From an uncultured beta proteobacterium (GTDB taxonomy: Bacteria > Pseudomonadota > Gammaproteobacteria > Burkholderiales > SG8-41), in contig CADECM010000002.1 in NCBI GenBank assembly GCA_902825845.1, positions 103,826 to 158,834 of the forward strand: a stretch of DNA of 55,009 nucleotides. The letters are read 5' to 3'. Each line of letters starts with the position of its first letter. Positions within the stretch are counted from its first letter, which is position 1. The notes under the pieces were generated by a model that made no database searches, was not told where the DNA came from, and saw only the letters and a program-made list of their open reading frames with translations. Both the position numbers and the translations under genes were made by a program. Positions 49,343 to 52,821 of this stretch are shown here, piece by piece.

Positions 49343-50371
49343 TCATTCCGCTTTCAGGCCCGCATCCTGAATGACCTTGCGCCACGCCGGCACTTCGCGC
49401 GCAAGCTGGCGCCGCAGGTCATCGGGTGTACCGGGCAGCGGCGTCGCGCCCAGCGCCAGCAAGCGTTCGCGCGTATCCGGTGTGCCGAGGATGGTCAGGA
49501 TTTCCGCGTTGAGTCTGGCGATGATTTGCGGCGGCGTCTTCAGGGCCACATACATGCTGAACCAGCCGCTGGTGTCGAAGCCCGGGAAACCGGATTCGGC
49601 GATCGACGGGACATCCGGCAACAGCGGCGTGCGTTTGGCGGTCGTCACCGCGAGCGCGGCCAGTGCGCCGAGCTTCACGTGTTGTGTCAGTACCAGCACG
49701 TTGTCGAATGCGACCTGCAGGCGTCCGCCGAGCAGGTCCGGCATCATTGGACCGGTACCTTTGTAAGGAATAAAAACCATTTCAATCCCGGCCAGCCGCT
49801 TGAACATCTCGCCGGACAGGTGCTGTACTGCGCCCGGCGCAGATGCGCCCCATGAAATTTTTCCTGGACGCGGTTTGGCATAAGCGATCAGCGCCTGCAC
49901 GTTCCTGACGCCCAGCGAGGGATGCGCAACCATGAGATAGGGCGTTGTCGCCACCAGCGCCAGCGGCTGCAGGTCGCGTTGCACGTTGAACGTCGAATTG
50001 CGGTAAAGATTGCCAACGATGCTGATCGACGAACCCGAAATCAGCAGCGTGTAGCCGTCGGGCTGCGACTTGGACACCAGTTCCGCGGCGATGATGCCGC
50101 TGACGCCCGGACGATTGTCGACTACCACCTGCTGGCCGAGGCGCTCGGACAGCTTGGCGCCGACGAGACGTCCCACCAGATCGGTGCTGCCGCCCGGCGC
50201 AAAGCCCACGATGAGACGGATTGGCCGTGCCGGGTAATTCTGCGCAGCGACCAACGCAGGCGTGATGCATAGCGAGACCGCGAGCGCCAAACCATGCCAC
50301 CGCGCCAATGACGCCGGTGCCGCAACCGCGGCAGCGGCACGACGTGCGTATAAGGATAAGAAGGTCATCAT
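49343..50371 (-). CDS. Bug/TctC-family periplasmic substrate-binding protein
   Basis: A 342-residue Bug protein with a long signal region (cleavage near residue 42, ALVAAQNYP). Motifs: YPARPIRLIVGFAPGGSTD, VVDNRPGVSGIIA, PDGYTLLISG, IPYKGTGPMMPDLLGG and DVPSIAESGFPGF. It starts 24 bases after the stop of the 369-aa gene, and that gap is filled by an AT-rich motif rather than a recognisable ribosome binding site. It is the last gene of the selenoprotein operon, suggesting that the receptor imports or senses the compound handled by that system. Confidence 0.92.
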   Translation of the reverse strand: MMTFLSLYARRAAAAVAAPASLARWHGLALAVSLCITPALVAAQNYPARPIRLIVGFAPGGSTDLVGRLVGAKLSERLGQQVVVDNRPGVSGIIAAELVSKSQPDGYTLLISGSSISIVGNLYRNSTFNVQRDLQPLALVATTPYLMVAHPSLGVRNVQALIAYAKPRPGKISWGASAPGAVQHLSGEMFKRLAGIEMVFIPYKGTGPMMPDLLGGRLQVAFDNVLVLTQHVKLGALAALAVTTAKRTPLLPDVPSIAESGFPGFDTSGWFSMYVALKTPPQIIARLNAEILTILGTPDTRERLLALGATPLPGTPDDLRRQLAREVPAWRKVIQDAGLKAE

Positions 50372-50385
50372 AAAAAGTTGTTTAA

Positions 50386-50398
50386 AAACAGATGGTTA
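50386..50398 (+). repeat. AT-rich boundary motif copy 9
   Basis: Core AAACAGATGGTTA on the plus strand. It overlaps the stop codon of the 369-aa gene (50396-50398) and fills the gap to the Bug start, both on the minus strand. Confidence 0.65.
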
Positions 50399-51505
50399 CG
50401 AAATAGTCTGCCACGGCGAGCCATCCTTGCGCAAAATCGGCACGGTAACATTCTCGGACGCCAGCCGCGTCTGCACCGACAGGCTGTGGGTGCCGGCGCC
50501 GCCCATCACCACAATCACGATGTCTTCCGGCCTGTCGGCGATCGGCACGCGCGCGTCGGGATCGAAGTCGGCGTAAAGCTTGAGCAGCTTCTTGCTGAAG
50601 CTGGTCAGATTGCCGCGCGGAATGCTGCCGAATGGAATGCGCGCCTGTTCCCAGACAAAGCGTTTCACTTCGGCCTTGCTGTAGCCCCCATTGGCCAACA
50701 GGCGCGCGTGCTGCGGACACAGGATCAGCAGCGGCTGGCCCTCGCCGTTGGTGTTGCGGTTGCCCACATAGGCAATGGACGAGGCGATGGTGCGCAGCAA
50801 ATCCTTTGCCGTCTGCGATCCCCCGTTGTCGTCGATCATCGCGGCCGGGCAGGCGGGGATCAGCGTTACCGTGCTGGTGTCGGCCGCGAACCCGCGTTCC
50901 ACGTGCAGCGGTTGCCACGGGTTCTCGTCTTCGTTTTCCGCGATGCAGTGTTCGAAGCGCGCGATGTGTCCCTGCGTGTGGATATTGATCGAGCCCGGCG
51001 TGCCGCCGATGTTGATCAGGCACAACTGCAGCGCGCGGCCGATGGTGCTGGTGGCCTGCCAGCGGCTGCCGGTGTGGTTGTAGCCGTAGTTGAGATCGAT
51101 TGCCTTCACCACCGGGCCGTTGACGATGGGCAGCGGCGACGTGTTGTGGGTGGAGGTCTGCACCGCGTCGAGATTAAATTTTGCATCGGCCACGCCCTTG
51201 ACGCAGGCGATCAGCAGCGGCAGGTATTCCGGCCTGCAGCCCGCCATCACCGCGTTGGCGGCGATTTTTTGTACCGTCGCCTGACCATGTTTGGGCGCCA
51301 GCGTACCGATCACATCGTCGCGTCCATAACCCAGTTCGCGTTCGACATACGCGGTCATCGCCGCCACGCGCGCCTCGGTCGGCGGCACGATCGGCAGGCC
51401 GTCGGTGAGATCGTGTTCGAGAAACCACGCGTTGATCGCTTCCCACGAATCTTCGAGCTCGAGTATCGGTGCGTCGCTGATGCCGGCTTTGAGTGGCGCG
51501 TTCAT
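50396..51505 (-). CDS. Uncharacterised 369-aa protein encoded with the UGSC selenoprotein
   Basis: I do not recognise an enzyme family. The 369-residue protein is soluble, with no signal peptide or membrane helix. Conserved-looking segments are LTDGLPIVPPTEARVAAM (about 33-50), NAVMAGCRPEYLPLLIACV (about 84-102), STHNTSPLPIVNGPV (about 117-131) and VVMGGAGTHSLSVQ (about 340-353). Several isolated Cys residues (in AGCRPE, LIACVKG, CLINIGG, EHCIAEN, PACPAAM and LCPQH) could serve redox chemistry. Its ATG overlaps the selenoprotein stop (ATGA), so the two are translationally coupled and probably act together. From memory, homologues occur beside UGSC genes; a search is needed to confirm. Confidence 0.75.
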   Translation of the reverse strand: MNAPLKAGISDAPILELEDSWEAINAWFLEHDLTDGLPIVPPTEARVAAMTAYVERELGYGRDDVIGTLAPKHGQATVQKIAANAVMAGCRPEYLPLLIACVKGVADAKFNLDAVQTSTHNTSPLPIVNGPVVKAIDLNYGYNHTGSRWQATSTIGRALQLCLINIGGTPGSINIHTQGHIARFEHCIAENEDENPWQPLHVERGFAADTSTVTLIPACPAAMIDDNGGSQTAKDLLRTIASSIAYVGNRNTNGEGQPLLILCPQHARLLANGGYSKAEVKRFVWEQARIPFGSIPRGNLTSFSKKLLKLYADFDPDARVPIADRPEDIVIVVMGGAGTHSLSVQTRLASENVTVPILRKDGSPWQTIS

Positions 51506-52101
51506 GCGGCCCCCGTTCCGGCGCGCGCGGCCGGATGCGCGAAATTGACGTGCGTATGCGGCTCCTGCGGACCCATGCCGGTGAGTTGTTCGACCACGAT
51601 CGGATAGGCCGCCGCCGCGAGTTCGCGCACTTCATCCGGCGTGAGGTCGTTCAGCGGATGCGGCGTCACCAGCAGCGGCAGCGCCGCCATCTGCAGATTT
51701 TTCGCCGCCAGATGGCCATGCGTGAGAAACGCCGTCGACACCACGGTCGATGTGGGTACGCCGCGTTTCTCAAGATACACCGAGTCGTGGATACACCACG
51801 ACGTGCAGCCGCCTCAGTCGCCCCAGGCGTTGACCAGCGCCTGCACCTTGCCTTCGAGTTCATTGGCGATCAGCTTGCTGGAGGTGAAGTCCTTGCGCAC
51901 CGTGTGCGTGGTCAGCCCGTTGAAATCCGCGCGCAGCTGTTCCTCGATGTATTGAATGAACAGCCCGGCATTGGGCTTGATGTTGTCGATAAAGCCGATG
52001 GATTTGCCGTTCAGTGTCTCCAGCCGCCGTGCCAGCGCGATGCGCTCGGCGGCGCGCTGCCCGACGGGATTGACGATACGGATCGTATTGGGTGCGTTCA
52101 C
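51502..52101 (-). CDS. UGSC-type selenoprotein (in-frame TGA read as selenocysteine)
   Basis: A 199-residue protein if the TGA at 51814-51816 encodes selenocysteine (residue 96). Either side of it the frame is continuous and the translation reads WGD-U-GGCTSWCIHD, a UGGC variant of the UGSC redox motif, with Cys at 99 and 103. The upstream half (1-95: IRIVNPVGQ, KSIGFIDNIKPNAG, LIANELEGKVQALVNAWGD) and downstream half (SVYLEKRGVPTSTVVS, LPLLVTPHPLNDL) belong to one known family, named UGSC (seleno)protein, whose other members have Cys or Sec here. It starts with GTG, with GGGGAG eight bases upstream. A hairpin with SECIS properties follows the TGA. The alternative, a pseudogene with a premature stop, is less likely. 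Confidence 0.85.
51784..51802 (-). promoter_or_regulatory. Candidate bacterial SECIS element
   Basis: On the minus strand, 11 bases after the TGA, GTCGTGG (51802-51796) pairs perfectly with CCACGAC (51790-51784) around the loop TGTAT (51795-51791). The loop lies 18 nt from the TGA and has G among its first two bases, both matching described bacterial SECIS rules. It would recruit SelB and Sec-tRNA. Confidence 0.75.
51814..51816 (-). other. Recoded TGA codon (Sec96)
   Basis: This TGA interrupts an otherwise open frame exactly at the U position of the UGSC/UGGC motif. Read as a stop it would leave two short ORFs of 95 and 92 residues. Confidence 0.8.
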
Positions 52102-52116
52102 AGTGATTCTCCCCGA

Positions 52117-52665
52117 TTACTTCGGCAGTGGATCATAGTTGTCCGGCGCCGGTACTTCCAGCGCGCTGGTGATGCCGCATAACATGCTGTAGTAATTGAT
52201 GACGGTAGTGAGTTCCACGATCCACTGCGGGCTGCGCCCTTTGCCCAGCGCATCGAAGGTCGGCTGATCGACGCGGTTGGTGCGCATCAGTTGCTCGGCG
52301 TAAGCCGCGACTTCGCGGTCGCCGGCGGGGAAACTCGCGGGCGCCGCGCGGTTGCGGATCAGCTCGATCACCGCATCCGGCACGCCGTTGCGGCGCGCGG
52401 CGTTGACCTGCGCACCCCACACGTACACGCCCTGGCGCTCGCGCGCCGCGATCAGAATGCCCACCGAGCGCACACGCGGTTCGACAATGGAGTTTTCGCG
52501 GAAATAATCGCCGACGCCGAACGCCGGCCACGCCATTTTCGGACTGTGCAGCAATACACTGGCCGGGCCACGCACCCCGCCAAAAACTTTGGTCACGTGA
52601 TCGACCAGATCGTGATGTTCGGAAGGGACATCGGCTTTGGATGCGATGGCGGGGATGCGGGGCAT
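52117..52665 (-). CDS. Carboxymuconolactone decarboxylase (AhpD-like) family protein
   Basis: A 182-residue helical protein of the carboxymuconolactone decarboxylase fold. The core is PRVRSVGILIAARERQGVYVWGAQVNAARRNGVPDAVIELI (about 65-105, quoted in parts), with the EW-H region replaced by VYVWGAQ. It lacks the CxxC redox pair of AhpD and the usual His, so it is neither a typical peroxidase reductant nor a typical decarboxylase. AGGAG is nine bases before the ATG at 52665; a start at 52707 is possible. It is the first gene of the operon, 15 bases ahead of the selenoprotein gene. Confidence 0.82.
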   Translation of the reverse strand: MPRIPAIASKADVPSEHHDLVDHVTKVFGGVRGPASVLLHSPKMAWPAFGVGDYFRENSIVEPRVRSVGILIAARERQGVYVWGAQVNAARRNGVPDAVIELIRNRAAPASFPAGDREVAAYAEQLMRTNRVDQPTFDALGKGRSPQWIVELTTVINYYSMLCGITSALEVPAPDNYDPLPK

Positions 52666-52821
52666 GGCGGCGTACTCCTGTGGTGTTGTGAGCTCGGGGT
52701 GGATCATCGGCGCGTGTGGTGCCGGACGTCAAGCGCGCACGGTGCCCTTGCGTTATGCTTCGCCCACGGGCCCCGACGGTTTTGGGGCGGCTATGTCGCA
52801 CATACCGGGAGTAGCGTATCC

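Follow-up and report, generated by a model that had tools for sequence, protein, structure and literature searches.

A gene for a putative selenoprotein was identified on the minus strand of a 55,009-nucleotide stretch of DNA (the window) from an uncultured beta proteobacterium. The gene is a UGGC-type member of the already known UGSC family. It is almost certainly intact, with selenocysteine (Sec) predicted to be incorporated at an in-frame TGA. The surprise lies beyond the window coordinates, in the scale and the modular organisation of the UGSC family. The UGSC gene is followed by a gene for a conserved partner protein, and the reading we lean towards is that the two products form a Sec-dependent, GrdB-like reductase for an imported small molecule.

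The UGSC gene and its in-frame TGA

The following features were located on the window:
51502..52101, minus strand: UGSC-family selenoprotein gene of the UGGC type, from a GTG start at 52101 to a TGA stop at 51502-51504, 199 residues including U96
51814..51816, minus strand: in-frame TGA, predicted Sec codon, the aligned codon being TGA in 81 of 84 homologous domains
51784..51802, minus strand: SECIS hairpin, with a 7-bp stem (51802-51796/51790-51784) around the loop TGTAT, at a distance of 18 nt from the TGA

The TGA at 51814-51816 separates two ORFs that share a frame on the minus strand, 51814-52101 (95 aa, starting with GTG) and 51502-51780. A sequence-only reading of the window had joined them through this codon, and the joined translation of 199 residues, WGD-U-GGCTSWCIHD around residue 96, was found to be as proposed. 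Both halves were predicted to be coding by a codon-usage gene caller blind to their link, with scores of 31 and 22. The downstream half was also checked for decay and showed none, being conserved in 22 orthologues and part of a confidently predicted fold (pLDDT 93.7). The frame stays open for 103 codons past the TGA (P ~0.05), so the length of the ORF alone is weak evidence.

The joined product matched the Pfam family PF24696 (UGSC) with 143.6 bits, against a gathering cut-off of 25, over positions 2-171 of the 172 in the profile. U96-G-G-C fits the motif rule of PF24696, which is Sec or Cys followed by GxC. With C in place of U, the product reached 121.4 bits against NCBIfam NF041046 and missed the curated cut-off of 125; the gene is therefore filed under PF24696 and not under the narrower NF041046 model. 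Database relatives numbered 16, and ten of these are pieces of 111-126 residues that cover 37-48% of the query. Both results fit the earlier expectation that standard annotation would miss a gene of this kind. Compared with the described UGSC family (PF24696, NF041046 and the GOS UGSC-containing protein), the window gene has the same domain and the same Sec position, and there is a precedent for fusion, whereas its motif is UGGC and its score falls just under the NCBIfam naming cut-off. The source assembly comprises 6.04 Mb in 207 contigs, with the window at 103826-158834 of contig C2, and the closest named records are mostly betaproteobacterial MAGs. Six loci (L052, L054, L057, L071, L088 and L092) come from environmental-looking MAGs labelled Bordetella parapertussis, and these labels look misassigned.

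Homologues were collected as 85 UGSC domains in 80 loci, 84 of which include the motif column. The codon in this column was TGA in 81 domains, TGC in two (Planotetraspora and Nocardia) and TCT in one; thus residue 96, for which Sec had been predicted, is Sec or Cys in the homologues save one clearly altered copy. Sec/Cys96 is the sole invariant column of a 56-row alignment, in which P12, G97, C99, G114, F125, H148 and P149 also reach 90%. UGGC was found in 27 of the 84 domains; within the window's own group, 21 of the 22 loci that could be read have it, the remaining one being UGAC. The variant singled out by the sequence-only reading is thereby a conserved sub-motif rather than a one-off. Besides UGSC and UGGC, the motifs UGAC, UGTC, UATC, USTC, UGSS, UGTS, UGNC and UGLC were observed. 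In UGSS (L019, on contig C46 of the source genome) and UGTS (L092), Sec is kept and the resolving Cys is gone.

The hairpin has a perfect stem of 7 bp (GTCGTGG/CCACGAC) and a 5-nt loop, TGTAT, with G in the second position, and the loop begins 18 nt past the TGA. Stem, loop, early G and spacing are all as first described from the letters, and they lie inside the limits that the available text of PMC13188914 gives for bacterial SECIS elements, namely a stem of 4-16 bp, a loop of 3-9 nt with G as its first or second base, and a distance of 16-37 nt. A loose hairpin rule was passed by 105 of 105 sequences, three of which have Cys (two) or Ser (one) in place of Sec; since it is passed even without the TGA, a hairpin within the limits proves nothing by itself. 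Selection was instead seen in the codons and in the pairing. Among 22 orthologues (the window and 21 loci), a single synonymous codon prevailed, at a mean of 0.99, at the five hairpin positions open to this test. The 80 further conserved codons used for comparison had 0.68, and only one of them was fixed; a result as extreme did not arise in any of 100,000 permutations. The seven stem pairs were standard in 81.8% of cells in 76 distinct TGA sequences (of 102), against 23.7-49.2% when the register was slid. The covariation score in register was 0.306, against 0.147 +/- 0.015 for shuffled alignments (0 of 500 as high) and at most 0.193 for slid ones; such scores are inflated by kinship among the sequences, a kinship that the slid controls retain. 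The innermost stem pair is G-C in 41 sequences and C-G in 31. Weaker measures of covariation were matched by some shuffles (changes on both sides in 84 of 500, further pair types in 30 of 500). The hairpin is under RNA-level selection, by its frozen synonymous codons and its fixed-register covariation.

The machinery for Sec, proposed earlier as a check on the TGA, was found complete for the three components searched for in the source genome: selA (563 bits), selB (455 bits) and tRNA-Sec (77 bits) lie in one cluster on one contig. A thioredoxin-reductase-like gene, scoring below its NCBIfam cut-off, lies within the selA-selB cluster, and the UGSC copy L024 is found some 300 bp away from the cluster. 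A Pyr_redox_2 gene adjoins a further copy (L028). In genomes of the same family, selB was over its cut-off in 66 of 74, and six of the remaining eight are less than 90% complete.

It is highly improbable that the TGA is a true stop, which would leave a pseudogene or two separate short genes. Mechanical annotation does give two ORFs, and a GTG is present in the second half, but this reading is already contradicted: each of the 21 UGSC copies of the source genome has a single TGA, which lies at the motif, the codons of the hairpin are frozen and its stem covaries, two Actinobacteria have Cys at the same column, a confident structural model spans the joint, and the Sec machinery is present. Hardly credible is a TGA read as some other residue, by suppression or reassignment, for which nothing speaks beyond the open frame; TGA, an ordinary stop in the source genome, ends 156 of the 324 called genes with a stop there and 302 of 752 called genes in stretches of a Chloroflexi genome described below (UGSC first halves, at most 21 and at most 76, being counted), and Cys is the only alternative at the column besides the one altered copy.

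Copy number of the UGSC family

The source genome contained 21 UGSC matches. The family was found in all 74 searched genomes of the taxonomic family, with from one to at least 40 matches each, and in 3 of 229 genomes across the class, the source genome counted. In one relative (G050; 98% complete, 2% contaminated), 58 matches were found, of which 51 have exactly one TGA; the seven others have an extra stop or no TGA, and some of them are pieces. In 30 loci of this relative, 32 of 34 UGSC matches extend to the motif, and all 32 have TGA there. At least six of the seven stem pairs are kept in 29 of these 32, and the closest other sampled copy is 33-69% identical.

The highest number was observed in a Chloroflexi MAG of 5.0 Mb, NC_groundwater_644, which was reached via locus L080. 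At least 148 UGSC matches were found in it (148 of 148 scored, from 208 candidates). Among the 78 matches listed, 75 have one TGA and three have two; some of the 70 further matches may be pieces. A total of 1.04 Mb of the approximately 5.0 Mb was read, in stretches partly picked for known copies, and gave 77 UGSC matches, one of them partial, with TGA at the column in 76 of 76 full domains. No pair of these re-read copies was more than 79% identical, which argues against strain mixing. Individual TGA-bearing places in this genome amount to 119, namely the 76 re-read and 43 listed outside those stretches. The search for selA, selB and tRNA-Sec gave none in the 1.04 Mb, so support for the Sec reading in the Chloroflexi genome comes from the motif, the partner and the hairpin; only part of the copies keep the hairpin in its fixed register.

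Dense groups of UGSC genes were also observed in this Chloroflexi genome (G193). Its 350,501-bp contig C99 (L207-L224) carries 25 UGSC genes and 24 partner matches, and ARAGORN finds no tRNA gene on it; this contig may be a plasmid or a special region. The first 60 kb of its contig C97 (L255-L257) hold 13 UGSC genes, the densest among the longer stretches.

The selenoproteome of the Olavius algarvensis Delta 1 symbiont reportedly spans many families. This symbiont and a Methylomirabilota MAG resemble the present genomes in having many Sec genes each, whereas here one family alone accounts for 21 and 51 one-TGA genes and for at least 148 matches. The largest bacterial selenoproteomes named in the available text of the review PMC13188914 are those of the same two organisms, with at least 57 selenoproteins for the symbiont and 63 for the MAG. 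No bacterial selenoproteome above 63 was found in the open-access literature, the figure of 63 being taken from that review.

The partner protein and the neighbouring genes

Three further genes surround the UGSC gene on the same strand:
50396..51505, minus strand: partner gene, 369 aa, without a sequence match in Pfam, NCBIfam or PDB
49343..50371, minus strand: TctC-type substrate-binding protein (PF03401, 196.7 bits), directly downstream of the partner
52117..52707, minus strand: carboxymuconolactone decarboxylase-like (CMD) gene (PF02627, 25.3 bits), upstream of the UGSC gene

The ATG of the partner gene and the UGSC stop codon share two bases (ATGA), and translation of the two is therefore probably coupled. 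The association was found to be close to obligate. Of the 21 UGSC copies in the source genome, nine are fused to the partner domain and ten have it beside them, upstream or downstream; of the remaining two, L020 is without a partner nearby and one is cut by a contig end. Conversely, 19 of the 21 partner matches in the source genome sit with a UGSC copy. The two others lie at a contig end (C73) and on a contig (C126) without UGSC in its first 5 kb. In the Chloroflexi stretches the partner was within 1.8 kb of 75 of 76 UGSC domains. Partner homologues number at least 6,585, among 7,998 candidates scored. The partner has near-invariant residues of its own, and searches of Pfam, NCBIfam and PDB sequences together with profile comparison gave no relative of known function.

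In the available text of PMC2398784, UGSC is already reported as fused to an unnamed domain, Unknown_1, which would be the same domain as the present partner. A fused relative (L085) was modelled with AF2 at a pLDDT of 90.2 and a pTM of 0.91, by which the overall arrangement of UGSC and partner is predicted with confidence. Rows of three fused UGSC-partner genes were seen at L081:254-7107 and L084:3311-8759, and the first copy in L081 has neither Sec nor Cys (TCT, SGVY). In the open-access UGSC literature searched, as far as its text was available, no description was found of the copy number per genome, the near-obligate partner, the solute-binding neighbours or the kinship to GrdB/PrdB.

The TctC gene travels with the UGSC-partner pair in close orthologues. 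Of 24 orthologous loci, 12 have it directly behind the partner, with an identity of 68-86%, and some of the others end too early to tell. Around all UGSC copies of the source genome no clear enrichment of TctC was seen, with 34 found and about 27 expected as computed from 447 first-look candidates. TctC genes are abundant in this genome, since 150 of the 150 candidates scored with PF03401 were matches (at least 150, from the 447 first-look candidates in 6 Mb), so that an enrichment around UGSC copies is not visible. The CMD gene was at its upstream place in 4 of 24 loci, at 72-74% identity; its conservation in only a few of the closest loci makes the association weak.

In the Chloroflexi stretches another type of solute-binding protein was found beside the UGSC copies. 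Among neighbours of 120-600 aa, no farther off than two genes and 1.5 kb, SBP_bac_5 accounted for 60 of 112; among genes at a distance of over 6 kb it accounted for 8 of 110, with a Fisher p of 1.1e-14 calculated over tandem copies that are not independent. One UGSC-partner pair of the source genome (L043, contig C56) is part of a long run of genes on the same strand; it is flanked by aspartate dehydrogenase, XdhC, a PEP mutase-like gene and TctC to one side and by chemotaxis genes to the opposite side.

Proposed function and its alternatives

The AF2 model of the UGSC product consists of five successive beta-alpha units, with Sec after strand three, just before the next helix. The top structural matches were common folds of the Rossmann, LacI and flavodoxin-like types. 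A more specific relation was obtained by profile comparison with hhalign: UGSC against 40 diverse GrdB/PrdB-like sequences gave 93.9%, with a pairwise E of 1.6e-7 and Sec aligned on Sec. Among subsets of these, four full GrdB alone gave 91.5% and the other two gave 38.3% and 43.5%. A first comparison, with 20 close Cys forms, had given 30.3%. As decoys, 40 reversed or column-shuffled profiles reached at most 1.1%. Ten neighbour families were also used as decoys, eight of which gave 0.7% or less, one, an unrelated family of four genes, 32.3%, and one 82.7%; this last family contains fused UGSC pieces and is therefore no decoy. Judged from these alignments, the Sec domain of UGSC probably shares common descent with GrdB and PrdB.

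UGSC and the Sec subunits GrdB and PrdB, the latter of D-proline reductase, are alike in UxxC, in the position of Sec and in a following (E)xxGI(P/A)T stretch. UGSC differs from GrdB/PrdB (PF07355) in having no single-sequence Pfam match and no GrdE-like pyruvoyl subunit. When the UGSC product was searched as a single sequence, PF07355 (GRDB) gave no match up to E 10 and only PF24696 was reported. The partner gave 0.1% against five GrdE-like proteins beside GrdB, which were taken as GrdE from their position, and 0.4% against the N-terminal part of GrdB. The partner is thus unlike both, and a pyruvoyl mechanism is not supported.

Genes closer to the known reductases were observed as well. The source genome has a PrdB-like gene (L131, about 91.9 kb on contig C4) with an in-frame TGA at UPNC, found also in relatives, and it is predicted to be a further selenoprotein. 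Full-length GrdB-like genes with TGA were found in relatives of the family (L174, L175 and L176); in these, Ser replaces the second Cys of UGTC (UGTSTRCG), and the genes adjoin likely grdE-type genes.

The reductase that we favour would operate as follows. SelB with Sec-tRNA would read the TGA at the hairpin, as the machinery and the RNA-level selection suggest. The resulting Sec, at the start of a helix in the predicted Rossmann/flavodoxin-like domain, would occupy the position that, by the profile alignment, belongs to the Sec of GrdB (glycine reductase) and PrdB (D-proline reductase). The partner domain may bind the substrate, and the selenolate would then attack it with reductive cleavage of a C-X bond. 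Cys99 could resolve the selenenyl-sulfide formed, and a system of the thioredoxin-reductase type could reset the enzyme. Each copy of the pair may have a different substrate, imported by the neighbouring solute-binding protein, as the association in the Chloroflexi genome would suggest.

An alternative is a selenoprotein that is not substrate-specific and acts as a general thiol-disulfide/peroxide oxidoreductase, thioredoxin-like as in the 2008 GOS paper. UxxC is a redox motif. In the window a CMD gene, which we take to belong to the superfamily of AhpD, lies upstream of the UGSC gene. The AF2 model, however, with its five beta-alpha units, has its best structural matches among Rossmann, LacI-type and flavodoxin-like folds, although these matches leave room for a thioredoxin fold, and L019 with its UGSS does without the second Cys. 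Tens to more than 100 divergent copies, nearly all partnered and in one phylum often adjoining a solute-binding protein, make a general redox role hard to credit, and we consider it unlikely.

The same loss of the second Cys bears on another alternative, in which the Sec domain would supply a nucleophile or a metal ligand to a non-reductive reaction of the partner, such as that of a lyase, a transferase or a hydrolase. Sec is near-invariant, yet the second Cys is dispensable in L019 (UGSS) and L092 (UGTS), and the partner combines near-invariant residues with the lack of any relative of known function in the searches above. Against this reading, the second Cys is retained in 82 of 84 homologous domains and in 76 of 76 Chloroflexi domains, which points to a Sec-Cys redox couple. 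A non-reductive role is accordingly improbable.

Evenly balanced, in our judgement, is the wider proposal that UGSC-partner pairs constitute a modular selenium enzyme platform, each copy reducing a different imported compound together with its own solute-binding protein. UGSC is listed among the selenoproteins of largely uncharacterized function in the available text of a 2026 review (PMC13188914), and its function is now directly testable, as a partner, a likely chemistry and a substrate route by way of the adjacent binding protein can be named. The genes are cut at the TGA by annotation, so if the platform reading holds, MAGs of betaproteobacteria and Chloroflexi contain a catabolic repertoire that is being missed. 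UGSC alone would then give the Chloroflexi groundwater bacterium well over 100 selenoproteins. This would be roughly double, or more than double, the largest number found in print for a bacterium (63, in the text available), and the number of selenoproteins known per bacterial genome would rise from 63 to well over 100. Selenium would in that case serve as a general catalytic platform for the degradation of many compounds, and not for a few redox tasks.
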